Shown here: positions 6,758-21,658 of the stretch, one piece after another
How positions within the stretch are numbered: position 1 is the stretch's first letter
Layout: each line of letters begins with the position of its first letter
Source of the DNA: a virus
Reading direction: 5' to 3' (one strand)
Virus record (IMG/VR): IMGVR_UViG_3300023108_001485
Coordinates: 1-22,520 of that record
DNA length: 22,520 bases
Made by a program: the position numbers and the translations under genes
The notes under the pieces: generated by a model
What the model saw: the letters and a program-made list of their open reading frames with translations, nothing else
Databases searched by the model: none
What the model was told of the DNA's origin: nothing

Positions 6758-6974
6758 AGAATTTGTCGCTGATCTGTGGGAATTGTTTAAAGAGTATCTA
6801 GACAAGAAACACATTGAAATGGCAGCTGAAAAGTATGTTGATACACTGATCGATTATGGCATGGATGACATACAGCTTAAAGGTATGTTAGGTGTAGATA
6901 AAACTTTAGATGCTGCTATTCAATATTATTTAGAAATGGATCAAGACGATTACGAAGATGAATGGGATAACTAA
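6750..6974 (+). CDS. Small acidic protein between uvsX and uvsY (unknown)
   Basis: A 74-aa acidic protein with no recognised domain. Two predicted helices (about 5-35 and 50-63) and a very acidic end (DQDDYEDEWDN) are visible. It overlaps uvsX by 8 bases and uvsY by 1 base (TAATG), and a GAGGAG Shine-Dalgarno (6734-6739) lies in the uvsX end. I recall a small gene at this place in some marine T4-like phages, but cannot confirm the family. Translational coupling suggests it acts with the UvsX/UvsY machinery; that is inference. Confidence 0.85.
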   Translation: MNEEFVADLWELFKEYLDKKHIEMAAEKYVDTLIDYGMDDIQLKGMLGVDKTLDAAIQYYLEMDQDDYEDEWDN

Positions 6975-7429
6975 TGGCATGGTACAGCCGAGTAAGTAGA
7001 GATATTACGCAAGTTCCAGCAGCAATACAGTATTTTGATACTGAGCTTCAAGCGGCAAAGCTAGAAGTAAAGTTAAAAGGAAACATTGAAAAAGCAAGTG
7101 CAGAAATGCCGGGCATTGTTGAACATCGATTTAATCAACTACAAGAACTAGAAGCCATATTAGAATATTTAAATATAGAACTGCGTAAATTACGCAGTTC
7201 ATTTTTTCGTAAATATCTTGAAAACTATCAACGTGCATTGAGTAGCCGTGACGTAGAAAAATATGTCGACGGCGAACAAGATGTTGTTGATTATGAAAAA
7301 ATTATAAACGAATTTGCACTGATGCGCAACAAGTGGTTAGGTGTACTAAAAGCACTTGATCAAAAACAATGGCAAATTACAAATATTGTCAAACTGCGAG
7401 TAGCAGGTATGGAAGATGCAACACTCTAA
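6974..7429 (+). CDS. uvsY: UvsY, recombination mediator
   Basis: UvsY helps UvsX displace gp32 and load onto ssDNA. The 151-aa protein is close to T4 UvsY (137 aa) in size. It is mostly helical, with the central segment LRKLRSSFFRKYLENYQ (70-86), the DVEKYVDGEQDVVDYEKIINE region (94-114) and the C-terminal KQWQITNIVKLRVAGMED typical of the family, and it sits downstream of uvsX. It starts at the TAATG overlap and ends 14 bases inside the next gene. Oddly, codons 69-78 encode a perfect terminator-like hairpin plus T6 (listed separately). I am confident of the family from both sequence pattern and position. Confidence 0.9.
   Translation: MAWYSRVSRDITQVPAAIQYFDTELQAAKLEVKLKGNIEKASAEMPGIVEHRFNQLQELEAILEYLNIELRKLRSSFFRKYLENYQRALSSRDVEKYVDGEQDVVDYEKIINEFALMRNKWLGVLKALDQKQWQITNIVKLRVAGMEDATL
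7178..7207 (+). terminator. Terminator-like hairpin inside the uvsY coding sequence
   Basis: GAACTGCGT (7178-7186) pairs perfectly with ACGCAGTTC (7192-7200); the dyad extends to 11 bp counting the A/T pairs in the loop. AT6 (7201-7207) follows directly. It lies in codons 69-78 of uvsY. The structure looks exactly like an intrinsic terminator, but stopping here would truncate uvsY. It may work in regulated form (antitermination, or only when translation is slow), or as an RNA 3'-end element. Confidence 0.6.
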
Positions 7430-8288
7430 AATATTACTAACAGGATCACATGGATTTATTGGCGGTCATTATTACCATCATTTACAACAAAAAAATGAAC
7501 ATGTAATACCGTATGATAAAAAACTTAGAGGTGAAGATTTAGCAGATAAAAATACCACCCAACTATTGCCAGATGTTGATACAGTAGTACATCTAGCTGC
7601 TACAAATGGCACTGCTCTATTTTATGAACAGCCTACTGATGTATTGATAAACAATACAATACCAACAATAAATTTAGTAGAACGTTATCGAAATACTAAT
7701 ACTAAATTTGTTTTTGCTAGTACGTGTGAAATTTTTAATGGAGCAATTGATGCAGGTTATTACCATGTGCCAACTGATGAGCAAGTACCAGTTGTGTTTA
7801 ACCACATTACAAATCCAAGATGGAGTTATAGCATTCCGAAAGCTCTCGGTGAAAACCTAGTTGCAAACAGTGGACTAGATTATTTGATTATTCGTTACTT
7901 TAATGTGTACGGCCCAGGACAAACGGATCATTTTATAAATGAATTTGTAGAACGTTGTAAACATGGTGATTATTATATCAAAGGCAATGACACACGCAGT
8001 TTTTGTTACGTTGACGATGCTGTAAAAATGACAGACAATCTTGTAAAAAATTGTGTAAACAAAACAGTAAATGTTGGCAATGACAATGAAGTGAATGTGT
8101 CAGTTGTTGCAAAAATGATAATGGGCTATATGGGTATCAATCCTGACAAGTTACAAATATTACCTGGACCAGAAGGCAGTGTAACACGTAGATGCCCAGA
8201 TACAACACTAGTGCAAATGCTAACAGGATTTACTGATTATACACCTTTAGAAGTTGGACTTAAAAAAACTGTGGAAAGTATACTATGA
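7416..8288 (+). CDS. Extended SDR nucleotide-sugar enzyme (UDP-glucuronate decarboxylase/epimerase type)
   Basis: NAD(P)-dependent epimerase/dehydratase acting on a nucleotide sugar in the cytoplasm. The 290-aa protein has the Rossmann motif TGSHGFIGG (9-17), HLAA (59-62), the active-site STCEIF segment (102-107) and YSIPK (138-142) for the catalytic Y-x-x-x-K. RYFNVYGPGQ (160-169), RSFCYVDDAV (194-203) and a VTRRCPDTT stretch (256-264) also occur. The last three resemble UDP-glucuronate decarboxylase (UXS) and related enzymes. With the UDP-glucose dehydrogenase-like gene next to it, a UDP-glucose to UDP-glucuronate to UDP-xylose path is plausible but inferred; 4,6-dehydratase or 4-epimerase activity is possible. 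It starts inside uvsY (14-base overlap) and ends in an ATGA overlap, so it opens the glycan island without a promoter of its own. Confidence 0.88.
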   Translation: MQHSKILLTGSHGFIGGHYYHHLQQKNEHVIPYDKKLRGEDLADKNTTQLLPDVDTVVHLAATNGTALFYEQPTDVLINNTIPTINLVERYRNTNTKFVFASTCEIFNGAIDAGYYHVPTDEQVPVVFNHITNPRWSYSIPKALGENLVANSGLDYLIIRYFNVYGPGQTDHFINEFVERCKHGDYYIKGNDTRSFCYVDDAVKMTDNLVKNCVNKTVNVGNDNEVNVSVVAKMIMGYMGINPDKLQILPGPEGSVTRRCPDTTLVQMLTGFTDYTPLEVGLKKTVESIL

Positions 8289-9022
8289 AAATTGGCGTAA
8301 TTGGTGTTGGTAATGTAGGCAAAGCAAACGTCAAAGGTTTTGAAAAACTAGGACATACTGTACTAGAACACGATATAAAATTCAATACAAAAATAAAAGA
8401 TGTATTGGATACAGAAATAGTATTTGTTTGCACACATGAAAATAATGTAGAAAAAGTTTTACAAGAAATTAGTTTGTATCAGTATAAAGGTGTTGTTGCA
8501 ATACGCAGTACAATATTGCCTGGAACTACAGATAAATTATTAAAAAAACATAATTTAGATATTTGCTTTGTACCTGAATTTTTAAGACAAGATTATGCAG
8601 ATGTAGATTTTGAAGATTGCAAGTTGTTAGCAATAGGAACATATAATTTAGCAATTGCTAGAACTGTAGTTGACGCTTTCAAGTCTTTGCCGAAATCTGT
8701 AGAATATATGTTACCAGTAGAAGCAGAAATATTAAAATTATACAACAACACATATGCAAGTTTGCGTATTGTATTTGCTAATTTAATGTACGATTTGTCT
8801 GCAAAGTACAATGCAAACTATGATATAATAAAAAATGCATATGTTAAAACAGATAAAACTAGTGGAAAGTATTTAAACGTAAATGAAAACTTGCGTGGAT
8901 ACAGTGGTGCCTGTTTACCTAAAGATACAGTCGCACTTATGAATTTAATTGATAAATTAAATATGGATTATGATTTAATTAAAAGTGTACACAACGATAA
9001 TTCAAAACTACCAAAAAATTAG
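8285..9022 (+). CDS. UDP-glucose/GDP-mannose dehydrogenase-like protein lacking the C-terminal domain
   Basis: The family oxidises UDP-glucose to UDP-glucuronate with two NAD. The 245-aa protein has the N-terminal Rossmann start MKIGVIGVGNVG (1-12), STILPGTT (75-82), VPEFLR (96-101), the dimerisation helix EAEILKLYNN (146-155) holding the conserved Lys151 and Asn155, and the catalytic Cys210 in GACLPKDT. It ends soon after (about residue 245), whereas family members run to about 390-450 residues with a C-terminal UDP-binding domain; that domain is absent and the downstream 30 bases cannot encode it. All catalytic residues I can check are kept, so it may be a minimal enzyme, a partner to another subunit, or an enzyme with a different substrate. 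It is translationally coupled to the SDR gene (ATGA). Confidence 0.88.
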   Translation: MKIGVIGVGNVGKANVKGFEKLGHTVLEHDIKFNTKIKDVLDTEIVFVCTHENNVEKVLQEISLYQYKGVVAIRSTILPGTTDKLLKKHNLDICFVPEFLRQDYADVDFEDCKLLAIGTYNLAIARTVVDAFKSLPKSVEYMLPVEAEILKLYNNTYASLRIVFANLMYDLSAKYNANYDIIKNAYVKTDKTSGKYLNVNENLRGYSGACLPKDTVALMNLIDKLNMDYDLIKSVHNDNSKLPKN

Positions 9023-9026
9023 TACC

Positions 9027-9039
9027 TATAAAGTACGCA
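9027..9039 (+). repeat. 13-mer TATAAAGTACGCA, copy 1
   Basis: An exact second copy lies on the minus strand at 16201-16213, also in an intergenic promoter region next to an ATAAATA box. Both copies lie between island genes. It may be a regulator site or promoter flank. Confidence 0.4.
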
Positions 9040-9040
9040 C

Positions 9041-9047
9041 ATAAATA
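9041..9047 (+). promoter_or_regulatory. T4-late-like promoter box ATAAATA before the cytidylyltransferase gene
   Basis: CATAAATAC lies 4 bases before the ATG at 9052, in one of the few gaps of the island. T4 spacing puts the transcript start at about 9053, on the start codon, and no Shine-Dalgarno is present, so the message would be leaderless or the box has another role. Confidence 0.5.
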
Positions 9048-9051
9048 CCAT

Positions 9052-9807
9052 ATGAAAGTAGTTATTGTAACTGGTGGTTTTGATCCACTGCATAGTGGAC
9101 ATATAGAATATTTTAAAGCAGCACGAGAATTAGGCGATCACCTTGTAGTAGGTGTGAATAGCGATACTTGGCTTACACGCAAAAAAGGCAAGGCATTTAT
9201 GCCCTTTGAAGAACGTTGTGCAATCATCAAAGAATTAGATTGTGTAAATGAAGTCATTGGGTTTAATGACGATGACGATACAGCATGTGCTGCAATATTT
9301 CAAGTGCTGTCTACAGTAGGTAGTCAAACAAAAGTTATATTTGCCAACGGCGGTGATAGAACCAAAGACAACATTCCTGAAATGATATACAACGATGTTG
9401 AATTTGTATTTGGTGTAGGTGGCGAAGATAAAAAGAATTCAAGTAGTTGGATACTTAAAGAATGGAGTCAGCCTACTACCGAACGTGCTTGGGGCAGATA
9501 CACTGTGCTTGACAAGGGCGAAGGTTGGCAAGTAAAACAATTAGAGTTTTACGAAGAACAGGCACTTAGTGATCAAAGACATTTTAAACGCAGTGAACAC
9601 TGGCATGTTGTTGATGGCGTTATTAATATGTTTTTAGAAGACAAGTCTGGTAATAGAACTAGTCATTTACTTGTGCCTGGAGACAGTATTGACATTCCTG
9701 TAGGTTATTGGCACAAGGCTGTAAATTTAGACAACAAAAGTGCTAAAGTAATCGAAGTGTGGATGGGGCAAGAACTTACTGAAGATGATATAGAAAGAAG
9801 AGACTAA
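9052..9807 (+). CDS. Cytidylyltransferase-like domain fused to mannose-6-phosphate isomerase-type cupin
   Basis: Two-domain sugar enzyme, 251 aa. Residues 1 to about 140 are a nucleotidyltransferase of the cytidylyltransferase superfamily: VTGGFDPLHSGH (6-17) with the HxGH signature (H14, H17), VVGVNSD (32-38), and KKNSSSWI (127-134) at the position of the second nucleotide-binding motif. Residues about 144-251 match the cupin of type II mannose-6-phosphate isomerases: ERAWGRYTVLDKGEG, RSEHWHVVDG (180-189), PGDSIDIPVGYWHKAV (209-224). In that cupin the metal ligands are usually H-x-H; here the second His is Lys179 (H177-F-K179), so metal binding may be altered. The family link suggests making a CDP- or other NDP-activated sugar, with the cupin isomerising or binding it. 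The substrate cannot be read from sequence. Confidence 0.85.
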   Translation: MKVVIVTGGFDPLHSGHIEYFKAARELGDHLVVGVNSDTWLTRKKGKAFMPFEERCAIIKELDCVNEVIGFNDDDDTACAAIFQVLSTVGSQTKVIFANGGDRTKDNIPEMIYNDVEFVFGVGGEDKKNSSSWILKEWSQPTTERAWGRYTVLDKGEGWQVKQLEFYEEQALSDQRHFKRSEHWHVVDGVINMFLEDKSGNRTSHLLVPGDSIDIPVGYWHKAVNLDNKSAKVIEVWMGQELTEDDIERRD

Positions 9808-10481
9808 TGAAAGTATTTGTAGGCTGGGATAGTAGAGAAGATATTGCATATCAAGTTTGTAAACATAGTATACTAAGCAAACAACCAGATGCAGAAGTTA
9901 TTCCATTGAAACAAAACGAATTGCGTGATAAAGGATTGTATTGGCGTGACGTAGATAAACTTGCCAGCACTGAATTTACGTTTACACGTTTCCTAATACC
10001 CGAACTTGTACATTATCGAGGATGGGCATTGTTTATGGATTGTGACATGATTCTTACAACAGATATAAAAGAACTGTTTGATCAAGCAGATGACAAATAC
10101 GCTGTCATGTGTGTACAACATGATTACACTCCTCGTGAAGGTTTGAAAATGGATGGCAAGCAACAAACAGTATATCCACGTAAAAACTGGAGCAGTGTCA
10201 TGTTGGTAAACTGCGGACATCCTAGCAATGCAGTATTGCATAAAGAAGTAGTAAACGATGCAGAAATATCAGGTGCGTACTTGCATAGATTTAGTTGGTT
10301 AAAAGATGAAGAAATTGGAGAATTGGATCACACTTGGAATTATCTTGTTGGTGTTTACAATGACATTGATGTTCCAAAATTAATTCATTATACAGAAGGC
10401 GGTCCTTGGTTTGAAAATTACAGAAACTGTGAATTCCACGAACTTTGGAAAGCAGAATTAATGGATATGATGAATGGCTAG
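9807..10481 (+). CDS. GT8-like glycosyltransferase
   Basis: Retaining GT-A-fold glycosyltransferase, 224 aa. It begins MKVFVGWDSRED, typical of a short GT8-like group. The DxD metal motif is DCD (78-80) in WALFMDCDMILTTDI, and the late KLIHYTEGGPWF (191-202) matches the GT8 H-x-x-G-x-x-K/P-W region. NWSSVMLVNCGH (127-138) is the typical acceptor-side strand. It starts at a TAATG overlap with the fusion gene and runs into the next methyltransferase gene (8-base overlap), so it is co-translated with them. Donor and acceptor unknown. Confidence 0.88.
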   Translation: MKVFVGWDSREDIAYQVCKHSILSKQPDAEVIPLKQNELRDKGLYWRDVDKLASTEFTFTRFLIPELVHYRGWALFMDCDMILTTDIKELFDQADDKYAVMCVQHDYTPREGLKMDGKQQTVYPRKNWSSVMLVNCGHPSNAVLHKEVVNDAEISGAYLHRFSWLKDEEIGELDHTWNYLVGVYNDIDVPKLIHYTEGGPWFENYRNCEFHELWKAELMDMMNG

Positions 10482-11034
10482 AGTCTGGATGGAGCATTGG
10501 AGTAGTAAAGAATACTTCAAATCTAAATTAGAAAACTTTGAAGTTATAGATAATTGGCTACAAAAACCTCCTTCTAGTATTTTGGAAATTGGCTGCGGAC
10601 AAGCAATAGAATCTATAAATTTTCAAAAAAAATATAATACAGAATTATGGTTATTAGATGGAGACTCGTCTACTACAGAAGATAGGAGTCGTTTTAGTAA
10701 ATTTGATAAAGTTGATAACATGAAATTTTATAATCCTATTGATGATTTAAAAAGTTTCTATAATAAAAGTAAAATAGAATATACATTTGTAGATGCAAAC
10801 AATATACAAATTCCAGATAATAAAATATTTGATTTAATTTATAGTTTTAAAAGTTGCGGCTTCCATTATCCAATTGACACATATTATGATTTAATTAAAA
10901 AACACAGCGATAAAAATACAAAATTAATATTTGATATTAGAAACAAAGTTGGTTTGTATTCTAGTAACTTTGAAATAGTAGAAACAATTGCAGAATATAA
11001 ACCCCGTACGACATACAGTTTGAGGTTAAAATGA
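10474..11034 (+). CDS. Class I SAM-dependent methyltransferase
   Basis: The 186-aa protein has SAM-binding motif I ILEIGCGQAIES (36-47), an acidic end of strand 2 (LLDGD, 60-64), VDANNIQIPDNKIFDLIYSF (106-125, motif III/IV region), and a C-terminal strand pair. The target is not identifiable; by context it is a sugar or glycan. The first ATG in frame overlaps the GT8-like gene by 8 bases and has no clear Shine-Dalgarno, so translation coupling is likely. By eye the sequence is more AT-rich than uvsX or gp32, in keeping with a separately acquired gene. Confidence 0.8.
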   Translation: MARVWMEHWSSKEYFKSKLENFEVIDNWLQKPPSSILEIGCGQAIESINFQKKYNTELWLLDGDSSTTEDRSRFSKFDKVDNMKFYNPIDDLKSFYNKSKIEYTFVDANNIQIPDNKIFDLIYSFKSCGFHYPIDTYYDLIKKHSDKNTKLIFDIRNKVGLYSSNFEIVETIAEYKPRTTYSLRLK

Positions 11035-11654
11035 TAGAATTATTTCACGCTGCACCTCAAACAAAAAATACAGATGACTTGGATAAAGAGCGTTATGACC
11101 ATTTAGATGCTGTTTGCAATTTAGGAAGTATACCCGGTGATATACTAGAGTTTGGAGTTTATCAAGGAGGTACAATTAATTTTATTGCTGAAAGATTTCC
11201 GCACAAACAAATTTACGGTTTTGACAGTTTTGAAGGATTACCAGAAGATTGGAAAATAAGTTTCAATGAAAAATTTAATAAACATAAAAAAGGATACTTT
11301 GCTGTAGACAATTTACCAGCAGTAAAAAACAATGTATCTTTAATAAAAGGATTTTTTGATAATAGTTTACCTAAATGGCTAGAAGAAAATAATTTAGAAC
11401 AAATCAGTTTATTACATGTTGACAGTGATTTGTATAGCAGTGCAAAAATTATATTTGACAATTTGAATGAATATATTGTAGAAGGCACAATAATTATATT
11501 TGATGAATTTTATCCCTGGGGACGCAAAAGATATGAAACTTGGGAACAACACGAATACAAGGCTTTTTGCGAATGGATAGATACATATAATAGAGAGTTT
11601 AAAGTATTATATAGAAACAATCATCAACAGTGTAGCATTAGGATAATCAAATGA
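11031..11654 (+). CDS. TylF/MycF-type O-methyltransferase
   Basis: Class I methyltransferase of the macrocin O-methyltransferase (TylF) family, which methylates sugar hydroxyls. The 207-aa protein shows GDILEFGVYQGGT (36-48, motif I), YGFDSFEGLPEDW (62-74), LLHVDSDLYSS (127-137) with metal-binding acidic residues, and IIIFDEFY (154-161). TylF-like enzymes act on sugars of finished glycosides, which suits a role in trimming the glycan made by this island. GAGG upstream of the ATG and the ATGA overlap with the preceding gene set the start; the end overlaps the next gene (ATGA). Confidence 0.9.
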   Translation: MIELFHAAPQTKNTDDLDKERYDHLDAVCNLGSIPGDILEFGVYQGGTINFIAERFPHKQIYGFDSFEGLPEDWKISFNEKFNKHKKGYFAVDNLPAVKNNVSLIKGFFDNSLPKWLEENNLEQISLLHVDSDLYSSAKIIFDNLNEYIVEGTIIIFDEFYPWGRKRYETWEQHEYKAFCEWIDTYNREFKVLYRNNHQQCSIRIIK

Positions 11655-12445
11655 TTTGTATTAGTAAAAATCTCAAAGATGAATTTATAAATGCATTTGC
11701 CAAAGGAGCTGGATTTCCAGTACAAAAAGATTTTGACAAAAATGCACATGAAACAATTATATTTCGCAGCATTGTAAAAAAAGATTTAATTAATTTTAGA
11801 TTAGAACATCAGTTACCTTTTTATTATATGGATAGCGGTTACTTAGGAAACTACAGAAGCGAACGCAATCCTGAGGCAAAAAAACTATGGCACAGAATAG
11901 TACGCAATGGTTTACAACATGACAAAATTATTCAACGCCCGGATGACAGATGGAAGCGTTTAGGTTTAAAAATTAAAAAACCTGTTAAAAGAAAAGGCAG
12001 TGCAATACTATTAGCATTACCAAGTCCAAAACCTTGTAAATTTTATGACATAGATTTAGAAAAATGGACAGCAGACACAATAGCAGAAATTAGAAAACAC
12101 ACTGATAGAGAAATAATTGTACGTGAAAAACCAAAACTCAGAGCAGAACGTGTAAACAGCAGTATATATGAAGACTTTGAAAAAACTCATGTGTTAGTTA
12201 CGTACAATAGTATTGCAGCAGTGGAAAGCGTATTACACGGTATTCCTGCTATAACACTAGCACCTACAGCAGCCGATCCTGTATGTGACAAAGATATTAG
12301 TAAAGTTGAAGATCCAACACTTCAACACATAGATAAATTAACTGCATGGGCTCATCATCTTGCATATGGACAATATCATTATCAAGAACTAGAAAGCGGT
12401 CATGCATATAGAATGTTAAAGAGAGACGAGGAACTATGCGAGTAG
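11651..12445 (+). CDS. GT-B-like island paralogue A (HP motif lost)
   Basis: First of four paralogues in the window (others start at 12436, 13445 and 17702). The 264-aa protein shares W-x(n)-IRKHTDREIIVR (from 139; 147-158), TYNSIAAVESVLHGIPAI (184-201), and the ending W-x-x-LAYGQYHYQELESGHAYRML. The pattern of an R-x-HP motif followed by a Y-x-S motif is like GT-B transferases of capsule systems (Kdo-transferase KpsC/KpsS and polysialyltransferase-like), which is how I read the family, at moderate confidence. In this copy the HP is replaced by EKP (159-161), so it may be inactive or changed in specificity. It is coupled to the TylF-like gene in front and the next paralogue (10-base overlap). 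Confidence 0.75.
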   Translation: MICISKNLKDEFINAFAKGAGFPVQKDFDKNAHETIIFRSIVKKDLINFRLEHQLPFYYMDSGYLGNYRSERNPEAKKLWHRIVRNGLQHDKIIQRPDDRWKRLGLKIKKPVKRKGSAILLALPSPKPCKFYDIDLEKWTADTIAEIRKHTDREIIVREKPKLRAERVNSSIYEDFEKTHVLVTYNSIAAVESVLHGIPAITLAPTAADPVCDKDISKVEDPTLQHIDKLTAWAHHLAYGQYHYQELESGHAYRMLKRDEELCE

Positions 12446-13458
12446 ATGTTTTTATGCAGTCAACATTTCAGGAACGTGAAAGAGATGTACTGAGATGTAT
12501 GTATACAGGAATAAAAAATGATTTGTGGCCTGATGAATTATGTCAAGAAGATCAAGACTTAATGCGGAGAATAAACAGAAAGAACAAATTAGGAACAGGT
12601 GTTAATTTGTCCTATGATGAACGTATAAAACCTCGACATGATTTAGGTGTTATATTTGGTAGCTGGAAAAAACGTGAAAACGATCATCATAAAGTCCGCA
12701 CACAAGTAGCAAACATAGATAAACCATTTTTATGCATAGAAACTCAATTACTAGGTAGAGTTATGTTTCAAGAAAGCGAATATCATAGAGTAGGAGTAAA
12801 TGGTTTTTTGAACGAAGACGCTGTGTTTGGATTAGAACAAACCTATAGTGATGATAGGTTTAAAAAATTAAATTTAGAATACAATGGTTGGAAAAAATCT
12901 AGAGGTGATAAAATTGTATTAGCATTGCAATTACCAGGAGACGCAAGTCTTAGGGGAATGGATATTAACGATTGGGCTATATGGACACTTGAGTGTATTA
13001 GAAAAGAAAGCGATAGACCTATTGAAATACGACTACATCCAGGAGTAAGTCAAAAAGGTGTAGATGCACATTTAAAGTTGATGCAGTGGCAGAGTTTTCA
13101 TAACATACCTAATGTTTCTTTTGTAAAAGGAAACGAATTACCTTGGGAAGAACACATATTGGATGCACACTGTGTGGTTGCATATACCAGTGGATTGAGT
13201 ATAGATGCTGTACGGAATGGTATTCCAGTTGTTGCTTGCGATCCTGGAAATTTTGCTTGGAGTATTAGCAGTAAAAATCCACATCAAGTTGAAAACCCAT
13301 TTATGGTTTCCGAAGATAGTGTCCAAAGTTGGCTTAATACTTTAGCATACTGTCAATGGTCAAAATCTGAAATGGAAAGTGGAGAAGCATGGGCTCATCT
13401 TAAACCGGTTGTTCAAAAAATAATTGAAGATGAAAAAATAGAAAATGAAGGTAGTTAG
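12436..13458 (+). CDS. GT-B-like island paralogue B
   Basis: The longest paralogue, 340 aa, with an extra N-terminal region of about 150 residues. The family core is complete: DWAIWTLECIRKESDRPIEIRLHPG (179-203) with the HP motif at 201-202, VVAYTSGLSIDAVRNGIPVV (247-266), and WLNTLAYCQWSKSEMESGEAWAHL (299-322). The resemblance to capsule Kdo/sialyltransferase-type GT-B proteins is at motif level only. GAGGA precedes the ATG. It overlaps its tandem neighbours at both ends, so A, B and C form one translational unit. Confidence 0.78.
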   Translation: MRVDVFMQSTFQERERDVLRCMYTGIKNDLWPDELCQEDQDLMRRINRKNKLGTGVNLSYDERIKPRHDLGVIFGSWKKRENDHHKVRTQVANIDKPFLCIETQLLGRVMFQESEYHRVGVNGFLNEDAVFGLEQTYSDDRFKKLNLEYNGWKKSRGDKIVLALQLPGDASLRGMDINDWAIWTLECIRKESDRPIEIRLHPGVSQKGVDAHLKLMQWQSFHNIPNVSFVKGNELPWEEHILDAHCVVAYTSGLSIDAVRNGIPVVACDPGNFAWSISSKNPHQVENPFMVSEDSVQSWLNTLAYCQWSKSEMESGEAWAHLKPVVQKIIEDEKIENEGS

Positions 13459-14371
13459 TTATTTACGTGGCATTCCAAATGCAAAAAATCAAGAAAAAAT
13501 CGATGTGTTAAAATTTTTCATCGACGGTGTTAATCGTTGTGGTGACGAAGGAATTCTGTCAAATGATTTTTTATGGCAACCTAGTTCAGCAGCAGTTCTA
13601 CAAGGATTTATAGCAGAGCATAATTTTAAGAATGTTCGAGCTCCGCATTTGAAATTAAGGAAAACAGTTTACGATAATCAATTAAAAACAAATGCATCAA
13701 CTATTATTGCAGATAGTAATTTGTTTCTTTATGCAGATCCTGGTAATACAAGACACTATTTAAGATACAGTATCAATGGTGTGTTTCCTACAACAGGAAA
13801 TTATATGTGGGATAATCCCGATCCTGCACGTTGGCAAAGTATAAAAAAGACTTTAAATATAGATTTAAAACCCATACAAAAAGACGGACACCATATATTG
13901 GTATGCTGTCAGCGCAACGGAGGTTGGAGTATGGGAAGTCTCGATGTTGTAGACTGGGTAAAGAATACTGTTAGACGTATTAGAAAATTCACAGATAGAC
14001 CTATTGTTGTTAGAGCTCATCCGGGAGACAAAAAAGCAAAAGATTATTTAAAATTTAAGTTTAAACAAAAAGGTGTACGATTAAGTTATAACGATCATAT
14101 ATTAGACGATTTTGTAAATTGTTGGGCTGTTGTGACATATAATAGTTCTCCAGGAGTAGCAGCAGCTATAGAAGGAATTCCTGTTTTTGTTACAGATCCA
14201 AATCCAAAAGTTAGTCAAGCCTTTGATATAGCAGAAACAGAATTACGTAGAATTGATAGACCAAAATTAAAAGACAGACAATCATGGATTGAAAAAATAT
14301 CCATGTGTCATTGGAATTTTGAAGAACTTAGATCTGGAGAAGCATGGAGACACATGCGCAAGTATGTCTAA
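13445..14371 (+). CDS. GT-B-like island paralogue C
   Basis: The third tandem paralogue, 308 aa. The core motifs are IRKFTDRPIVVRAHPG (179-194, HP at 192-193), VVTYNSSPGVAAAIEGIPVF (229-248), and WIEKISMCHWNFEELRSGEAWRHM (281-304). Its middle part (LKPIQKDGHHILVCCQ) is closest to paralogue D at 17702 (LKPWRKDGEYILICGQ), so C and D probably separated last. It ends tail-to-tail with the minus-strand methyltransferase gene, overlapping by 4 bases, with no terminator visible between them. Confidence 0.78.
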   Translation: MKVVSYLRGIPNAKNQEKIDVLKFFIDGVNRCGDEGILSNDFLWQPSSAAVLQGFIAEHNFKNVRAPHLKLRKTVYDNQLKTNASTIIADSNLFLYADPGNTRHYLRYSINGVFPTTGNYMWDNPDPARWQSIKKTLNIDLKPIQKDGHHILVCCQRNGGWSMGSLDVVDWVKNTVRRIRKFTDRPIVVRAHPGDKKAKDYLKFKFKQKGVRLSYNDHILDDFVNCWAVVTYNSSPGVAAAIEGIPVFVTDPNPKVSQAFDIAETELRRIDRPKLKDRQSWIEKISMCHWNFEELRSGEAWRHMRKYV

Positions 14372-14922
14372 GGTTTTTTAACGCACCAACATCTTCCTAT
14401 TTTTGTTACAGCAATATTTCTTTCAGCAAAAAATTCATTTACTGCTTTGCATACACCAGGCCATCCTTTTGTATAATCATCGCCTCCAAAGTATGCACCT
14501 GATTTAATCTTTGGCCACCATGCATGTAAATCTTTTTTTACACCTTCGTAACTATGATCGGCATCTACATAACAAAAGTCTACACTGTTATCAGGAAATT
14601 TTTTTGCACTTAGATGACTATAATCTCTAATATTTTTTATGTAATTTTCTACAGGTTTCATCGTTTCTACATATGCTTCAAATGTATAATTAAAATTATT
14701 AAATTTTTCAACAGGTTGCCATAAATCAACACAGGTAAAATTAAAATCGATGTTTTGATTAATTAATTCAACAACACAATATGCTGCACTTTTTCCTGTA
14801 AATGTTCCTAGTTCTACCCAATTAAAATTATTATGTGTTTTTTCTAAAATAAAATCAAATAATTTTAAATTACTGCCTTTTGTAAAACCCTTTACGTTTT
14901 GATAAAAATGATCCATTACCAT
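14368..14922 (-). CDS. Class I methyltransferase (Methyltransf_24-like)
   Basis: A 184-aa SAM-dependent methyltransferase. It shows motif I WVELGTFTGKSA (35-46), an acidic strand-2 end (CVDLW), VDADHSYEGVKKDLHAW (119-135) and GGDDY (146-150), a metal-binding pattern shared with the TylF-like enzyme of the island but a different subfamily. The start is uncertain: ATG at 14922 has AGGAG only 3 bases away, while the in-frame ATG at 14916 has it 9 bases away and may be the true start. It is the last gene of a three-gene minus-strand operon and overlaps the stop of the GT25 gene. Confidence 0.82.
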   Translation of the reverse strand: MVMDHFYQNVKGFTKGSNLKLFDFILEKTHNNFNWVELGTFTGKSAAYCVVELINQNIDFNFTCVDLWQPVEKFNNFNYTFEAYVETMKPVENYIKNIRDYSHLSAKKFPDNSVDFCYVDADHSYEGVKKDLHAWWPKIKSGAYFGGDDYTKGWPGVCKAVNEFFAERNIAVTKIGRCWCVKKP

Positions 14923-15587
14923 CTTCTCCTCACAAGAGAAATTTTACCATTGTATCTTTCTCTTTTAATATCTTCTCCCATAGCATATCCGTGAACTTGT
15001 AATTTAACTAAATGATAATTCATTGCATTATCTGCTGGAAGAAAACTGTTTTTATATTCGTCTACTAGTATTTTTGCAGCATGAGGTTTTATAACGTAAC
15101 CTGCTGTACCAGGCATGCTAGATTGCTTGTATGGTTTTGCTTCTGGATCACCTTCTGACTCATATATGTAGTGTAAATATTTTTTACGTTTTTTATTATG
15201 ACTAAATGCAACAATTAATACGTCATCAAAATCAACAGGAATGTATGGGCGTACTGCATCTGCATCATCTTCCATAACTAAAATAGGTTCTTGCAACTTA
15301 CAACACTTTTGCCAAAGTCTGTAATGACTATCAAAACAACCAATTACACCTGCATTTTTTTGTTGTTGGTTAATATAATCTTCCGATAATCTATGTTCAG
15401 GACCGTGCTTAAAACTCCAAGGATGATGTTTCCTGCCTTGTTGTTCATATTGTTTCATTACTACATCGCCGTACGAACCTTCGAATAATTCTGCATTCAT
15501 GCCAAAACTTTGAAGTTTATTTTTTAATACCAATGCACTATCTAAACTTGGTTTTATTTTACTGAGATGTATAATGAAAGTTTTCAT
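14916..15587 (-). CDS. GT25-family glycosyltransferase (LPS type)
   Basis: Glycosyltransferase family 25, typical of lipooligosaccharide galactosyl- and glucosyltransferases. The 223-aa protein begins MKTFIIHLSK, and has GCFDSHYRLWQ (83-93), the acidic motif LVMEDDAD (103-110) and TAGYVIKP (161-168), all family signatures in the right order. AGGA lies 8 bases before the ATG. The start overlaps the sulfotransferase stop (ATGA). An LPS-like acceptor would fit a role in modifying the host envelope, but that is inference. Confidence 0.9.
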   Translation of the reverse strand: MKTFIIHLSKIKPSLDSALVLKNKLQSFGMNAELFEGSYGDVVMKQYEQQGRKHHPWSFKHGPEHRLSEDYINQQQKNAGVIGCFDSHYRLWQKCCKLQEPILVMEDDADAVRPYIPVDFDDVLIVAFSHNKKRKKYLHYIYESEGDPEAKPYKQSSMPGTAGYVIKPHAAKILVDEYKNSFLPADNAMNYHLVKLQVHGYAMGEDIKRERYNGKISLVRRRW

Positions 15588-16180
15588 TTTTTATATCCTA
15601 ATAATTCAAAATCACTTTCATATCGATTATAAATTTTATTTCTTTGTTCTTGTGTCAAATTAATTATATCGTCTGAAGTTTTATTATACTGACGAACTGT
15701 AATATTATATCTGTCAAAGAAACTTTGTAAATTTTTTAAATCAATAATTTCTTCTACTAGCATATTACCTTTTTTACATATAAAACTTGTTTGGCTACGA
15801 ATATGTTTGTTACATTTGTCTGTACTCATGTGTTCTAAAACTAATGATAAAAAATAATCAAATGTCATTTCTCTTTCAAAATCTATTATACGTTTTAATG
15901 CTCCGTACGGTCTACGTATACCAAAATCTTTATACATACTAATAAAGCGTTCATATGGATTTCTAGTTACTGTAAAATTAAAATAACTATTTGCTAATGC
16001 ATCTCTGTCATTGATATAATTTAATTTAGTTTCGTCGTGTACCCATTTTTCTTTACTATGTATATTGTGTTTTTCTACAGAAGGCAACGCTAAACACGCT
16101 TTAACAGCAGTATTACCACATTTGGGAATAGCCCAATAATTTAATTTATAATTGTCCCACTGTGTAATATTATACTTCAA
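15584..16180 (-). CDS. Sulfotransferase family 2-like protein (TTG start)
   Basis: PAPS-dependent carbohydrate sulfotransferase-like protein, 198 aa. The 5'-phosphosulfate loop is WAIPKCGNTAVK (16-27) and the 3'-phosphate-binding segment is VTRNPYERFISMYKDF (71-86). It ends SDFELLGYKK, the common Y-x-x-DF ending of the family. The start is a TTG at 16180, chosen because AGGA lies 6 bases upstream and no in-frame ATG is nearby. It is first in the minus-strand operon, divergent from a second sulfotransferase-like gene, with a shared palindromic promoter region between them. Confidence 0.87.
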   Translation of the reverse strand: MKYNITQWDNYKLNYWAIPKCGNTAVKACLALPSVEKHNIHSKEKWVHDETKLNYINDRDALANSYFNFTVTRNPYERFISMYKDFGIRRPYGALKRIIDFEREMTFDYFLSLVLEHMSTDKCNKHIRSQTSFICKKGNMLVEEIIDLKNLQSFFDRYNITVRQYNKTSDDIINLTQEQRNKIYNRYESDFELLGYKK

Positions 16181-16191
16181 ATCAATTCCTC

Positions 16192-16218
16192 ATAAATATA
16201 TGCGTACTTTATATTTAT
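16192..16218. promoter_or_regulatory. Palindromic pair of divergent late-like promoters
   Basis: ATAAATATA (16192-16200) and TATATTTAT (16210-16218) are perfect inverted repeats around 9 bases, giving one T4-late-like ATAAATA box on each strand (plus 16192-16198, minus 16212-16218). T4 spacing predicts starts near 16204 and 16206, and both divergent genes then have leaders of about 25-33 bases with an AGGA site. The centre contains the 13-mer that recurs at 9027-9039. Confidence 0.6.
16201..16213 (-). repeat. 13-mer TATAAAGTACGCA, copy 2
   Basis: This is identical to 9027-9039 on the plus strand. It lies between the divergent sulfotransferase genes, inside the palindromic promoter region. 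Confidence 0.4.
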
Positions 16219-16236
16219 TAAAAAAGGAAATGCAAA

Positions 16237-16851
16237 TTGCCAACTGTAATTTATCCTAACGGAAAAACAATTAGTTTACACGCAGCTAATAAATGCGGTA
16301 TATCTACTGTGCAAAGTTATCTAGGATATCCTATATGGGGAGATTTGCGTGGACGTAATGGCAAACGTGAACTAAAACAAAAAGGATTGTGGATTGGTGA
16401 ACGTGACATTAATGAAGCGTATCCTACACTAAATGTAGATCATAGTGCTTGTGTTATTAGACATCCGGTTAGCAGAATGACCAGTATATACATTGATAGG
16501 GTTACAAATAAAAGCAGAGAAAACTGTTTTCAAGAAATTAAAAATTGGGACAATTTTGTTCAAAATTTTCCTTTATGGAGAGAGAAATACAAAGATATAC
16601 GTATTCACAGTAACGAACAATCATCAATTTTAATGGATTTAAAATACTATGATAAAGTTTTTACAACAAGTCAATTAGGTAAAGAAGTTAGAGAATGGCT
16701 AGGCAATTTGACAGACTGTGTTATACCAGAAGCAAGAGGAAAATTCAGTCACGGTAAAACAGAAGAAATAGAAGTTACATATCATCAAGAAAAATTAATC
16801 AGAGAATATTTCAAAAATGATTTTATTGTGTATAAAAATTATTTCCAATAA
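16237..16851 (+). CDS. Second sulfotransferase-like protein (TTG start)
   Basis: A 204-aa protein related in layout to the divergent sulfotransferase. The N-terminal loop HAANKCGISTVQSYLG (15-30) stands in for the PAPS 5'-phosphosulfate loop (the Pro before Lys-Cys is Asn), VIRHPVSRMTSIYIDR (73-88) is the 3'-phosphate-binding segment, and it ends YFKNDFIVYKNYF. Identity between the two island copies is low, so they are not a recent duplication. A stop lies in frame at 16219, and the only suitable start is TTG 16237, with AGGA 8 bases upstream; the nearby ATG at 16230 is in another frame and soon ends. It ends tail-to-tail (13-base overlap) with the next minus-strand gene. Confidence 0.8.
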   Translation: MPTVIYPNGKTISLHAANKCGISTVQSYLGYPIWGDLRGRNGKRELKQKGLWIGERDINEAYPTLNVDHSACVIRHPVSRMTSIYIDRVTNKSRENCFQEIKNWDNFVQNFPLWREKYKDIRIHSNEQSSILMDLKYYDKVFTTSQLGKEVREWLGNLTDCVIPEARGKFSHGKTEEIEVTYHQEKLIREYFKNDFIVYKNYFQ

Positions 16852-17663
16852 CTTTCTTGGCGAGTTACTATTAGATCGTTAGGTTTATTACTTTTACCGA
16901 TATCTTTTCTATCGCCTTTTAGATGATCAAAATACTTTCCTAAATCGCTGTTGATAAATGGATGGCCTTCGCCATTAATTAGATCACCACTAATATTGTA
17001 AAAAGGAAAACTTTCGTGTTTTTTTGCTACTCGTTTTCTTACTTCTTCAAATACAAAACTATCGTGCCATTCTTCCATTTTAAAAATACCATTTTCGGCA
17101 TCTTCATAAACTGATTCAAATTTCTTTAAAAACCATTTACCAGGCTTAGTACGCAAGTTGATACCATAAAAGCCACACTCTGGCCATTTTTTACCTCTGC
17201 CTAAATAACTCATCCATGCACGTTGCGGCGTAAAACTTCTTAGGTCATTGTATGATACCGGCGAATGTACATATGTATCCGCATCTAACCAAATGATCCA
17301 ATCTGTATCACAACGTTCTGCTGCATCAAACACAGCATACACTTTGTTAGCAAAACGCACTGCATCCCACTTGAAATCTTTCATCCAATCTTTTGGACGT
17401 CTACGTCTAATCTCAGGAGGACATACACCATTGGCTTTTGGTTCATTTTTCCAACGTTCTTTAAATGCAACCAGTTTTGGAAGTTCTGCTTTTTGATCTA
17501 ACACAAGAATGCGTTCGTCATTTGTTACAGGAGAACAATCTTCAGCATACAAATACAGTTTGATATCTTTGTCTACGTTCTTACTAAAACTGTCTACAAA
17601 CCTTTGGCCATATAAATCCAATACAGGTTTGTGAAATGTTGATACGAAAGAAATTGTTTGCAC
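16839..17663 (-). CDS. DxD-type glycosyltransferase (GTG start)
   Basis: A 274-aa putative nucleotide-diphospho-sugar glycosyltransferase with a GT-A fold. DWIIWLDADTYVHSP (121-135) holds the DxD motif (127-129), KWDAVRFANKVYAVFDAA (98-115) is the helix before it, EEWHDSFVFE (197-206) is the usual acidic catalytic-side motif, and HLKGDRK (247-253) is the basic C-terminal phosphate-contact region. It is not GT8 or GT25, and I cannot name its family. The GTG at 17663 is preceded by AAGGA at 7 bases. It overlaps the convergent sulfotransferase-like gene by 13 bases. It is transcribed divergently from paralogue D. Confidence 0.82.
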   Translation of the reverse strand: MQTISFVSTFHKPVLDLYGQRFVDSFSKNVDKDIKLYLYAEDCSPVTNDERILVLDQKAELPKLVAFKERWKNEPKANGVCPPEIRRRRPKDWMKDFKWDAVRFANKVYAVFDAAERCDTDWIIWLDADTYVHSPVSYNDLRSFTPQRAWMSYLGRGKKWPECGFYGINLRTKPGKWFLKKFESVYEDAENGIFKMEEWHDSFVFEEVRKRVAKKHESFPFYNISGDLINGEGHPFINSDLGKYFDHLKGDRKDIGKSNKPNDLIVTRQESYWK

Positions 17664-17676
17664 TGTGCTATCCTTG

Positions 17677-17699
17677 TTAAATACGTTATAGGTATTTAC
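17677..17699. promoter_or_regulatory. Second divergent pair of late-like promoters
   Basis: TAAATAC (17678-17684) and GTATTTA (17692-17698) form a perfect inverted repeat around 7 bases, giving a TAAATAC box on each strand. The minus box predicts a start near 17687 and a 24-base leader carrying AAGGA for the glycosyltransferase. The plus box predicts a start near 17689 and only about 13 bases to the ATG at 17702, without a good Shine-Dalgarno. The design repeats that at 16192-16218. Confidence 0.55.
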
Positions 17700-17701
17700 A
17701 C

Positions 17702-18547
17702 ATGAGATTTAGTTTATTCAAAGAATATGGTGCAATGAACAGCAAGCCTGTGTTTGAAGCGTTTGAACACAGCTTACGGAAAGCAGGACACACTATAGAA
17801 GAAGATAGTATGCACAGCGATGTTGCTGTTATATGGAGTGTGTTGTTTAATGGACGCATGACAGGCAACAAGCCTATATGGGATTATTATACAAAAACTG
17901 GTAAAAAAGTTATAGTATTAGAAGTTGGCGGTATTAAAAGAGGAACAACATGGAAGGTAGGACTAAATGGTATTAATCGTGACGGTTTCTTTGGTAATGA
18001 TGGGAATAGCAGTGATCGTGCTATTTCGCTCAAAATAAATTTAAAGCCTTGGCGCAAGGACGGTGAGTATATATTAATATGTGGACAACATGACAAAAGT
18101 TTGCAATGGCGTAATATGCCACGTATGAGCAATTGGTTTTTAGAAACATATGATACTATTCGCAAACACACAGACCGTCCTATTGTATTTCGTCCTCATC
18201 CTAGATGTAGATTAGAACATATTGAAAGCGGACTTAAATATGTTTATAGACAAGAACCCAAACACATAGGTGGAACATATGACGATTTTGATATGGGCTT
18301 TGATAATGTATATTGCACTATTAGTTGGAGCAGCAATCCTGGGATTCATAGTGTCATCAACGGGGTTCCTGCTATTGTTGGTCCTAGTAGTCTTGCTTAT
18401 GATGTAGCAGGACATGATTTGAACTTGATAGAATATACACAAACACCAGATAGAACACAATGGCTAAATGATTATGCTTGGACTGAATACACAGTAGAAG
18501 AAATAGCCTCAGGCTTGCCACTGAAGAGATTGACACCTAAACTGTAA
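17702..18547 (+). CDS. GT-B-like island paralogue D
   Basis: The fourth paralogue, 281 aa, separated from A-C by the minus-strand block. It shows LKPWRKDGEYILICGQ (114-129), IRKHTDRPIVFRPHPR (153-168, HP at 166-167), ISWSSNPGIHSVINGVPAIV (207-226), and an ending W-x-x-DYAWTEYTVEEIASGLPL where the usual SG-x-AW has become SGLPL. The N-terminus (MRFSLFKEYGAMNSKPVF) differs from the others. The closest relative in the window is C. The GT-B capsule-transferase reading is at motif level. Its 3' end contains the -35 of the next promoter. Confidence 0.78.
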   Translation: MRFSLFKEYGAMNSKPVFEAFEHSLRKAGHTIEEDSMHSDVAVIWSVLFNGRMTGNKPIWDYYTKTGKKVIVLEVGGIKRGTTWKVGLNGINRDGFFGNDGNSSDRAISLKINLKPWRKDGEYILICGQHDKSLQWRNMPRMSNWFLETYDTIRKHTDRPIVFRPHPRCRLEHIESGLKYVYRQEPKHIGGTYDDFDMGFDNVYCTISWSSNPGIHSVINGVPAIVGPSSLAYDVAGHDLNLIEYTQTPDRTQWLNDYAWTEYTVEEIASGLPLKRLTPKL

Positions 18548-18564: not shown

Positions 18565-19701
18565 ATGACATATATTGAAGAATATCTCGAATATCTTTGT
18601 AAAGAAAAATTAAACTCACTGCAATCTGTTGATGCAATATACTTTAGTATATACAAACAAACAGTTAGAGGCCTAGGCTTAACGGATAGACAATATGCGT
18701 TGGTGTTGAAAAAAATTCAGGAGTTTGTGTCGGTTGAGGATTTACCAACTAAAATTCCTTTACGCACAATTGATAGAAGCAAGTATATAAAACTTGTAGA
18801 CACTGCTGATGTTTACGGACAAGATACAGTTTATGAGAGTTACAAAACTAAATGGAAATGGATAAAAGTTAGATTCCCTTTCAGTAAAAAAGATATTGTA
18901 AAAGTTGATAGTCTTCAAATCTCACACACAGAATACTATCACAAAAAAGGCAGTCATGAACACTACTACAAATTTACACCAAAAAATGTTCATGCTATTG
19001 TAAGCGTTTTACAAAATAGGAATTTTGAAATACAAGACGAACTAAAAGAATACTATGAAAAGGTTGACAAAATAAAAAACAGCAACTTTGATACATACGA
19101 TTGTTTACCTGATTCTGTATTGCAAGAACTTGATAATTTAACACAGTTACAGAAAGCAGATAGAGGATTTCGTTATGGATATAGAAAAAACAAAAACAAT
19201 CACGAATCATTATCTGAAAAAATTGCTTACAGATTAGAGCATGATATTTGCATTAATCCTGATAATCATAAATTTGATGAAGTTGCACAAGCAGTTGCAG
19301 AACTAAACAGATTTCCTTTGCTTGTGTTAATTGACGAGGACATGAGTTACCCACAGTTGAAGCAAATTCACAGTGCATTTGATTTCGTACCCAATGATAA
19401 ACAAAGTGTTCTGTTTAGAATCGATAATAAAGATTCAGCAAATGCAGCAGTAAATGATTATATCAAAGAACACGAATTAAACAACTGGGTTGACAATAGT
19501 ACACAAATAGTGTATATTAAAAAGAATAAATTACCAAAAGTTTTATTACAAGCAGATTTTGATCCAATTTGTGCAATAGGTAAAACCAGCAATAGATGCA
19601 ACGGTAACGTTAATATGTATATCAACTTATACTGTGACTGTGTAATATACCATGACAAAAGTTTAAGTTTATTTAGGAGAACTACAAGTGCCTACTTGTA
19701 A
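18565..19701 (+). CDS. Unrecognised 378-aa protein upstream of uvsW
   Basis: Not recognised. Visible features: a short motif GLTDRQYALVLKKIQEF (57-73); a mainly helical, Lys-rich middle section; a predicted Rossmann-like strand FPLLVLIDED; and a C-terminal part with several Cys residues (CAIG, NRCNG, YCDCVIYHD). It ends LSLFRRTTSAYL. It overlaps uvsW by 14 bases and has its own sigma70-type promoter, so it is expressed early with the helicase. A role in replication, recombination or helicase loading is a guess from that coupling. The ATG at 18565 has no Shine-Dalgarno, in keeping with a leaderless message. Confidence 0.85.
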   Translation: MTYIEEYLEYLCKEKLNSLQSVDAIYFSIYKQTVRGLGLTDRQYALVLKKIQEFVSVEDLPTKIPLRTIDRSKYIKLVDTADVYGQDTVYESYKTKWKWIKVRFPFSKKDIVKVDSLQISHTEYYHKKGSHEHYYKFTPKNVHAIVSVLQNRNFEIQDELKEYYEKVDKIKNSNFDTYDCLPDSVLQELDNLTQLQKADRGFRYGYRKNKNNHESLSEKIAYRLEHDICINPDNHKFDEVAQAVAELNRFPLLVLIDEDMSYPQLKQIHSAFDFVPNDKQSVLFRIDNKDSANAAVNDYIKEHELNNWVDNSTQIVYIKKNKLPKVLLQADFDPICAIGKTSNRCNGNVNMYINLYCDCVIYHDKSLSLFRRTTSAYL

Positions 19702-21151: not shown

Positions 21152-21658
21152 ATGAATATACTTACGCTAGAAAATTCGAGCTTTAATTTAAATCAATTAC
21201 CAGATGAAGTTGATGACACAATGAGGTTTAGTGTGCTGGATAACAGTAATCCTCAAGACCCAGATTTCTTTTTTAATCCATTAATATTTTTAGAATCTTT
21301 TAACTCACCAGCAGCAGTAATTGAAATCAATGGTAACCAAATCACTATGCCACTGGATTGGTGTATTGCTGTAGGTTGTAGTAATGCAGGCAGCGACTTA
21401 GAAGTACTACCTCTAACCAGTTTAAACGAAAGAGGATTTGAAGCATATCTTTTCAATCCATTGAGTAGTTATCAGCCTGCGTTTGGTAAAATAGAAATAG
21501 TTAATTTTTACAATGATGTTAAATGGTATTTTCCAAAAATGAAAAACGGGCAATTGTTAAGTGTGCCAATAACAGAAGGTAAAGAACCTCTGTGTGCATT
21601 TTTTGTAAAAGATATTAGTAGACAATGTGAGGTTATTGATTTTGGAAAACTTTTATAA
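21152..21658 (+). CDS. Hypothetical protein after uvsW
   Basis: Unrecognised, 168 aa, predicted to be mostly beta. A compact segment MPLDWCIAVGCSNAGSDLEV (66-85) followed by LPLTSLNERGFEAYLFNPLSS looks like the conserved core. I believe similar proteins occur in other marine T4-like phages but cannot name a family. The ATG follows the UvsW stop with no gap and without a clear Shine-Dalgarno. Its end overlaps the following oxygenase-like gene by up to 32 bases. Confidence 0.85.
   Translation: MNILTLENSSFNLNQLPDEVDDTMRFSVLDNSNPQDPDFFFNPLIFLESFNSPAAVIEINGNQITMPLDWCIAVGCSNAGSDLEVLPLTSLNERGFEAYLFNPLSSYQPAFGKIEIVNFYNDVKWYFPKMKNGQLLSVPITEGKEPLCAFFVKDISRQCEVIDFGKLL

Follow-up and report, generated by a model that had tools for sequence, protein, structure and literature searches.

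A probable glycan-assembly cassette with a constant core and exchanged tailoring genes in an uncultured jumbo-phage clade

The stretch of DNA analysed here (the window) is a 22,520-base IMG/VR fragment (IMGVR_UViG_3300023108_001485), and its subject is an island of glycan-related genes at positions 7416-18547, between the genes uvsY and uvsW, which are neighbours in T4. From left to right the window carries a terL-type terminase gene, a structural-like gene (h599), ssb, uvsX, a 74-amino-acid open reading frame (ORF) and uvsY, followed by 15 tightly packed island genes (g1 to g15), a gene designated h378, uvsW and small genes. The interval is 99.6% coding, its 15 ORFs (184-340 amino acids) mostly overlapping by 1-14 bases, with 11 genes on the plus strand and four (g10, g11, g12 and g14) on the minus strand. 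A preliminary description had counted about 14 genes for sugar-nucleotide synthesis, transfer, methylation and sulfation; profile matches bear out all of these classes, while the count is 15, made up of three sugar-nucleotide, seven glycosyltransferase-like, three methyltransferase and two sulfotransferase genes. The naming of the flanks as uvsY and uvsW is confirmed by PHROGs (Table 1; uvsX matches at E 3e-71), but the emphasis placed on recombination genes is not, as these belong to an ordinary terL-ssb-uvsX-uvsY-uvsW backbone and nothing points to an action of theirs on the locus.

The UvsW and terminase of the window are 43-56% identical to those of the cultured jumbo phages PA5oct/Paride, Phosso, Atu_ph07 and GAP32/XbC2, and among contigs whose UvsW is 82-90% identical, lengths of 262 and 357 kb are attained. 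By these sequence criteria the window comes from a clade of uncultured jumbo phages that has PA5oct/Paride, Phosso and GAP32 among its relatives; a near-identity search of cultured phages gave a sole match of 0.8 kb in uvsX. The interval between uvsY and uvsW measures 28 bp in Paride, about 1 kb in XbC2 and Vibrio 2.275.O, 1.8 kb in GAP32 and 2.8 kb in Phosso, and in Atu_ph07 it holds about 6 kb of unnamed genes; homologues of island proteins are found there in none of these six cultured relatives. Environmental relatives were sampled by UvsW or UvsX rather than by glycan genes, and 40 of their contigs span the full island interval, at lengths of 6.2-9.9 kb against 12.3 kb in the window, the sequence of many contigs having been fetched only 10 kb upstream of uvsW. 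The gene order in the clade is uvsY, cargo, g3, g4, a g7-type gene, g9, cargo, g14 (on either strand), g15, h378 and uvsW. The core genes g3, g4, g7-type, g9, g14 and g15 are syntenic and nearly always present (g14 and g15 in 40 of the 40 full intervals, g4 in 39, g3 in 33), and the catalytic motifs are invariant inside each core family.

Three contigs have an empty site with only uvsY, h378 and uvsW. In the UvsW tree the 71 scorable island rows form one clade (support 98/97) to which the three empty-site rows are sister, with 14 further clade rows cut off and unscorable. The island is present in all 71 scorable rows and no clade member among the tree rows is known to lack it; an island clade beside an empty sister points to one gain at the base of the clade or one loss in the sister. 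In an empty-site genome of 383 kb (G002) homologues of g15 and g4 are lacking throughout, and in a 357-kb island contig (G001) they are confined to the island. As judged from these sequences, the island is fixed in one jumbo-phage clade. Atu_ph07 (L165) and the contig L106 show that the interval is expanded in other jumbo-phage lineages too, with other gene sets, and uvsY-uvsW may in itself be a place where insertions commonly occur.

Around this core the gene content turns over rapidly. Comparison of the window with the contig L082 shows DNA identities of 85% over ssb-uvsY, 70% over g3-g4, 81% over g14-g15 and 88% over uvsW, whereas g1-g2 and g10-g13 are unalignable, the alignment breaking at gene edges. 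The GC content of the core genes g3, g4, g14 and g15 is 36-38.5% and that of the cargo genes g2, g5, g6, g10 and g12 is 26-30%. A set of 108 cargo genes falls into 57 groups, of which 39 are singletons, and pairs of phages with 95-99.5% identical UvsW have a mean of only 28% of their cargo in common. Cargo differs even at 96% UvsW identity, the differences being mostly in methyl-, sulfo- and GT25 transferases, and relatives carry mainly FkbM and other methyltransferases, nine GT25 and six to seven sulfotransferases. In the window, L002 and L021 the g1-g2 pair precedes g3, and in L003, L005, L006 and L029 it follows uvsW. These comparisons show that methyl-, sulfo- and GT25 transferases, epimerase and dehydrogenase, the tailoring genes, are exchanged in two places, one following uvsY and the other bounded by g9 and g15, and constant and variable parts are arranged like a serotype locus. 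Peroxiredoxin genes occur four times among 89 glycan cargo genes of relatives (for example L060:155-796), together with one serine hydroxymethyltransferase gene.

The suggestion in the preliminary description that this is a variable locus holds between lineages, since none of the six cultured relatives or three sister contigs carries homologues of the island at this site, and clade members do swap cargo. Conservation of content and order, which had been named as an outcome that would speak against it, is seen by half: the order of about six core genes is kept through the clade, whereas the cargo varies.

Table 1. Features of the uvsY-uvsW interval and its flanks in the window.
Feature	Positions	Strand	Evidence
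uvsY, left flank	6974..7429	+	phrog_231 E 4e-18; 75-98% identity in clade members
g1, NAD-dependent epimerase/dehydratase, mobile cargo with g2	7416..8288	+	PF01370 E 6e-34; GxxGxxG and YxxxK present
g2, compact nucleoside diphosphate (NDP)-sugar dehydrogenase	8285..9022	+	PF00984 E 5e-15; TIGR03026 positions 97-298 of 413
g3, core, HxGH cytidylyl/adenylyltransferase fused to phosphomannose isomerase (PMI)-type cupin	9052..9807	+	PF01467 E 7e-16; PF01050 E 2e-20
g4, core, GT8-like glycosyltransferase, DxD motif	9807..10481	+	PF01501 E 2e-6; phrog_28018 E 2e-55
g5, S-adenosylmethionine (SAM) methyltransferase, cargo	10474..11034	+	phrog_22502 E 6e-6; GC 26%
g6, TylF-type O-methyltransferase, cargo	11031..11654	+	PF05711 E 5e-17
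g7, KpsC-like GT-B paralogue, core position	11651..12445	+	paralogy to g8/g9/g15; without QXXXD and HP
g8, KpsC-like GT-B paralogue	12436..13458	+	QLPGD (QXXXD) and RLHP ((K/R)XHP)
g9, core, KpsC-like GT-B paralogue	13445..14371	+	RxHP and Gln invariant; Gly for Asp in 36/36
g10, methyltransferase MT24, cargo	14368..14922	-	PF13578 E 6e-18
g11, GT25 glycosyltransferase, cargo	14916..15587	-	PF01755 E 4e-17
g12, sulfotransferase, 3'-phosphoadenosine-5'-phosphosulfate (PAPS)-type loop motifs, cargo	15584..16180	-	PF03567 E 2e-16; GC 26%
g13, divergent sulfotransferase-like, cargo	16237..16851	+	PF03567 E 4e-4; 21 bits against Pfam cut-off of 22
g14, core, GT-A fold glycosyltransferase, DxD invariant	16839..17663	-	AlphaFold2 (AF2) pLDDT 93.6; Foldseek GT6/GT8-type enzymes E 1e-6
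g15, core, GT-B, retaining-Kdo-transferase fold	17702..18547	+	AF2 pLDDT 95; Foldseek KpsC/WbbB/KrkA E 1e-7
h378, fast-evolving backbone protein, also at empty sites	18565..19701	+	24-48% identity in relatives
uvsW, right flank	19688..21151	+	phrog_16 E 3e-77

Such turnover could be read as a loose pile of host-acquired sugar genes, 'stuffer' or moron genes without one coherent product. The cargo is indeed AT-rich (GC 26-34%, against 36-38.5% in g3, g4, g14 and g15) and shifts position, and 'stuffer DNA' has been raised for cyanophage lipopolysaccharide (LPS) genes (PMC3037559). However, the core order is kept in 40 of 40 full intervals and in 71 of 71 scorable rows, the motifs of the core families do not vary, and KdsA and KdsB (see below) co-occur without exception, so that this reading is highly improbable for the island and is largely refuted for the core.

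Four of the transferases, g7, g8, g9 and g15, are left unnamed by Pfam, PHROGs and NCBIfam and are mutual paralogues (E 1e-15 to 1e-22). Profiles of g9, of g14 and of the whole GT-B family found nothing real among PDB sequences, the last with no match up to E 10, and structure prediction was therefore needed; Capsule_synth (PF05159) has no match among the island proteins. The g15 model, built on 37 sequences and the one model on which the test for a KpsC/WbbB-type fold was made, has as its top PDB matches 8fux, 8csd and 6mgd (TM score about 0.5), which are the retaining 3-deoxy-D-manno-oct-2-ulosonic acid (Kdo) transferases KpsC, WbbB and KrkA, while the model of g14 is that of a GT-A enzyme. 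Kdo is a sugar of bacterial outer membranes. In known Kdo transferases the nucleophilic Asp and a carboxylate-binding Gln lie in a QXXXD motif, and (K/R)XHP binds cytidine monophosphate (CMP) (PMC10148158, PMC12887879). QXXXD with its Asp is present in g8 and at least ten relatives. All 36 g9 sequences keep the Gln and RxHP and have the Asp replaced by Gly, and all 37 g15 sequences keep the Gln and (K/R)XHP and have Ser at this position, the segment RPHPR being invariant at R, H, P and R. Only g8-type proteins carry both QXXXD with Asp and (K/R)XHP, and g7 has neither. The GT-B paralogues without this Asp may have a glycosyltransferase chemistry of a new kind.

If the donor of these GT-B enzymes were CMP-Kdo, phage-borne Kdo synthesis might exist, and kdsA and kdsB were then found. 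In island contigs, genes of KdsA and KdsB type occur as a pair right of uvsW, and both are absent from the empty-site genome. KdsA exceeds its curated cut-off in each of the four proteins tested; its partner matches the KdsB family best, with scores short of the equivalog cut-offs. Of the 36 island loci whose right flank is 6.5 kb or longer, 17 carry the pair and 19 lack both genes, a single gene being seen in none. The closest relatives (L002-L007, UvsW 91-96% identical) all carry kdsA and kdsB, 1.1-5.6 kb after uvsW, and in the nearest, L002, kdsA starts 2.1 kb after uvsW, which corresponds to about base 23,300 in window coordinates, just past the end of the contig. The KpsC-type fold, the (K/R)XHP motif, the QXXXD of g8 and the kdsA-kdsB pair that about half of the clade carries next to uvsW together give good support to the view that the GT-B enzymes use CMP-activated Kdo. 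Sialic-acid synthesis, suggested by a sialyltransferase-like gene in Caulobacter phage cassettes, was rejected, NeuB being absent. Other genes near kdsAB right of uvsW (for example in L003, L013 and L051) encode a peptide deformylase, a Vut_1 transporter, a phosphoenolpyruvate (PEP) carboxykinase and 2-oxoglutarate (2OG)-Fe(II) oxygenases, and L003:14846-15493 reads like a PP-loop ATPase.

The acceptor left aside, we consider it probable from these sequence data that the island is a glycan-assembly cassette, fixed in one jumbo-phage clade, with a constant core and exchanged tailoring genes. In the pathway we propose, g3 and g1/g2 (or the host) would supply NDP-sugars and phage or host KdsA/KdsB would supply CMP-Kdo. 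Working as soluble cytosolic enzymes, g4, g14, g8, g9, g15 and g11 would assemble a short acidic Kdo-containing oligosaccharide, to which g5, g6, g10, g12 and g13 would add methyl and sulfate, giving lineage-specific caps; exchange of cargo would then diversify the product under pressure not to resemble neighbours. No membrane segment is seen in the 15 island proteins, and a single weak one in 90 cargo proteins of relatives. A flippase (PF13440), a polymerase/ligase (Wzy/WaaL, PF04932) and an initiating transferase (PF02397) are absent from eight related contigs, two of them of 357 and 262 kb, the same profiles matching 14, 9 and 9 of 14 control genomes. The chain would thus be made in the cytosol, and the acceptor would either need no export (a virion protein, DNA) or be exported by the host (an LPS core on lipid A).

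Since these three functions were not found, the cassette is not a complete surface-polysaccharide pathway of the Wzx/Wzy type, and the earlier claim of a whole surface-glycan module is not sustained. Nor is the completeness that had been stressed: no sugar kinase is found in the island, no membrane step in the related contigs searched, and the match of g2 to UDP-sugar dehydrogenases is limited to the NAD-binding and central domains, the catalytic-Cys motif GACLPKD being present and the C-terminal domain absent.

DNA is the least promising of these acceptors. Enzymes that glycosylate phage DNA, as the T4 alpha- and beta-glucosyltransferases do, would account for the many glycosyltransferases and for an arms-race diversity of glycans directed against restriction, and DNA glycosylation is a usual reading of jumbo-phage glycosyltransferases (PMC12619734). 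A base-hydroxylating route was, however, not found: the sole PF00303 match in 12 contigs, in G001, scores above the curated ThyA cut-off and is a true ThyA, and Tet/JBP was not detected in a search made without a positive control. We also know of no DNA precedent for Kdo, sulfo- or GT25 chemistry, which counts against this acceptor. For want of a hydroxymethyl-pyrimidine route, modification of DNA is very unlikely.

Between the host envelope and the virion the choice is close. Tentatively, and with a likelihood a little short of even, we place first an inner-leaflet host glycolipid of the LPS or lipooligosaccharide (LOS) core type, which the host would export, so that the surface of the infected cell would be changed and rival or sibling phages could not adsorb. 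This ranking follows from the enzyme classes (Kdo, GT8, GT25), which are those of LPS and capsule, and from the basic character of several transferases: g9, g11, g14, g12 and g13 have isoelectric points of 8.5-9.5, and membrane-peripheral enzymes are often basic. Both points count against the second possibility, that soluble phage enzymes act in the cytosol to glycosylate a protein of the capsid, tail or fibres, comparable to the capsid glycans of giant viruses and to glycosylated mycobacteriophage virions, the latter cited in PMC12619734. It gains from the lack of any membrane segment in the island and of a flippase, polymerase/ligase or initiating transferase, and from an island that is fixed across the clade rather than patchy; moreover, four paralogues from the giant Tetraselmis virus 1 are among the best structural relatives in viruses. 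Distant cassettes adjoin tail and lysis genes in Caulobacter phages and terL in ct7QV12, but others sit among metabolic or tRNA genes. A virion acceptor is given a slightly lower likelihood. The fuller proposal, that the clade coats its own virions with a Kdo-based acidic glycan with reshuffled caps, made by CMP-Kdo-type transferases whose Asp to Gly/Ser changes would imply a mechanism not known from Kdo transferases, is unlikely; if true, such a coat would parallel, in a bacteriophage, the capsid glycans of giant viruses.

Several observations weigh against a Kdo-based cassette acting on the host envelope. The nucleophilic Asp is missing in g9, g15 and g7, and in g7 the HP motif as well, which makes the donors of these three uncertain. 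About half of the island loci, the 262-kb contig G003 among them, are without KdsAB, and kdsAB in the phage of the window itself is extrapolated from relatives, the window ending before the expected position. The soluble enzymes and the mixed positions of the distant cassettes do not discriminate envelope from virion. The clade sample consists mostly of fragments and is limited by 10-kb flanks, and all assignments are based on sequences and models.

Beyond the island, h378 has no family match. It lies directly between the island and uvsW, has homologues also at the empty sites L076, L078 and L080, and evolves far faster than its neighbours, with for example 41% identity between phages whose UvsW is 96% identical. 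At the right end of the window, 21627-22253 and 22255-22518 encode a tandem pair of similar proteins that share '..NLPFEI..' close to the N terminus and an HxD-like 'HTDF/HTDY' motif; they resemble 2OG-Fe(II) oxygenase/cupin-type enzymes, have no family match and possibly belong to the same glycan neighbourhood. In Pseudomonas phage Paride (L163, 5971-9016) uvsX is annotated in two parts with a hypothetical gene between them, and a homing endonuclease is annotated immediately downstream, an arrangement that resembles an intron or intein interruption. Neomarinimicrobiota were considered as a host clue and set aside: the two matches, L168 (PBPT01000016.1, 335 kb) and L169 (PBPT01000082.1, 153 kb), lie in one Neomarinimicrobiota metagenome-assembled genome and show the same phage locus twice, in phage gene order, and are probably binned jumbo phage.

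Phage sugar genes are usually filed as scattered auxiliary genes. Here an assembly line appears to be fixed in an entire jumbo-phage clade, and its likely sugar, Kdo, is predicted by motifs and independently backed by the adjoining kdsA/kdsB. LPS proteins occur in 76% of one marine jumbo-phage group (PMC9123017), and the big polymorphic 'LPS' clusters of cyanophages have been read as serving superinfection exclusion during pseudolysogeny (PMC3037559, PMC7824862). The island belongs to this known kind of phage 'LPS cluster' (P-SSM2 type), with sugar-nucleotide synthesis and several glycosyltransferases in a large T4-related phage. Like the clusters of P-SSM2, S-SSM7 and S-SM2 it is large, multi-gene and polymorphic, combining glycosyltransferases with sugar-nucleotide enzymes, cupins and HIGH-type nucleotidyltransferases; S-SSM7 has a nucleotidyltransferase to which the corresponding half of g3 is 56% identical. 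The fusion of this half to a cupin is seen in the window and about 30 relatives, the cultured-phage matches listed covering one half only. The island differs from the cyanophage clusters in its site, uvsY-uvsW rather than near hli/phoH, in its clade-fixed core, and in its KpsC-like paralogous GT-B family, linked Kdo synthesis genes and sulfotransferases. No description of this clade's island was found in the literature, the moraphage paper (PMC12619734) treating a jumbo-phage lineage not compared with the clade. As far as our tools show, the new elements are a clade-fixed core at one site with exchangeable caps, viral KpsC-like paralogues with Asp-less branches, and the linkage to Kdo synthesis.

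With KpsC (GT107), WbbB (GT99) and KrkA (GT140) the island GT-B proteins have in common the fold of g15, the (K/R)XHP of g8, g9 and g15 and the QXXXD of g8, but they are viral, have no detectable sequence similarity to these enzymes and always have Gly (g9) or Ser (g15) for the Asp. The 'capsule polysaccharide biosynthesis' proteins of Tetraselmis virus 1 also have the g15 fold (TM score about 0.77), with several paralogues in one virus, although that virus, unlike the island phage, infects a eukaryote. Smaller cassettes of a related kind are carried by Pelagibacter phage Mosig, Caulobacter phages CcrColossus/BL9, podovirus ct7QV12, Stenotrophomonas phage DLP_6 and Synechococcus phage S-SCSM2R, where g4-like glycosyltransferase, KpsC-like GT-B and/or g14-like genes lie near methyl- or sulfotransferase genes, and in S-SCSM2R KdsB/KdsA are close to the g4-like gene. 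These cassettes differ from the island in their sequences (24-49% identity; 33-49% for g4 relatives in other phages), in genomic site and in having fewer genes. The question of host or virion that attaches to phage 'LPS genes' becomes testable, including in the cultured Caulobacter and Pelagibacter phages with these smaller versions.

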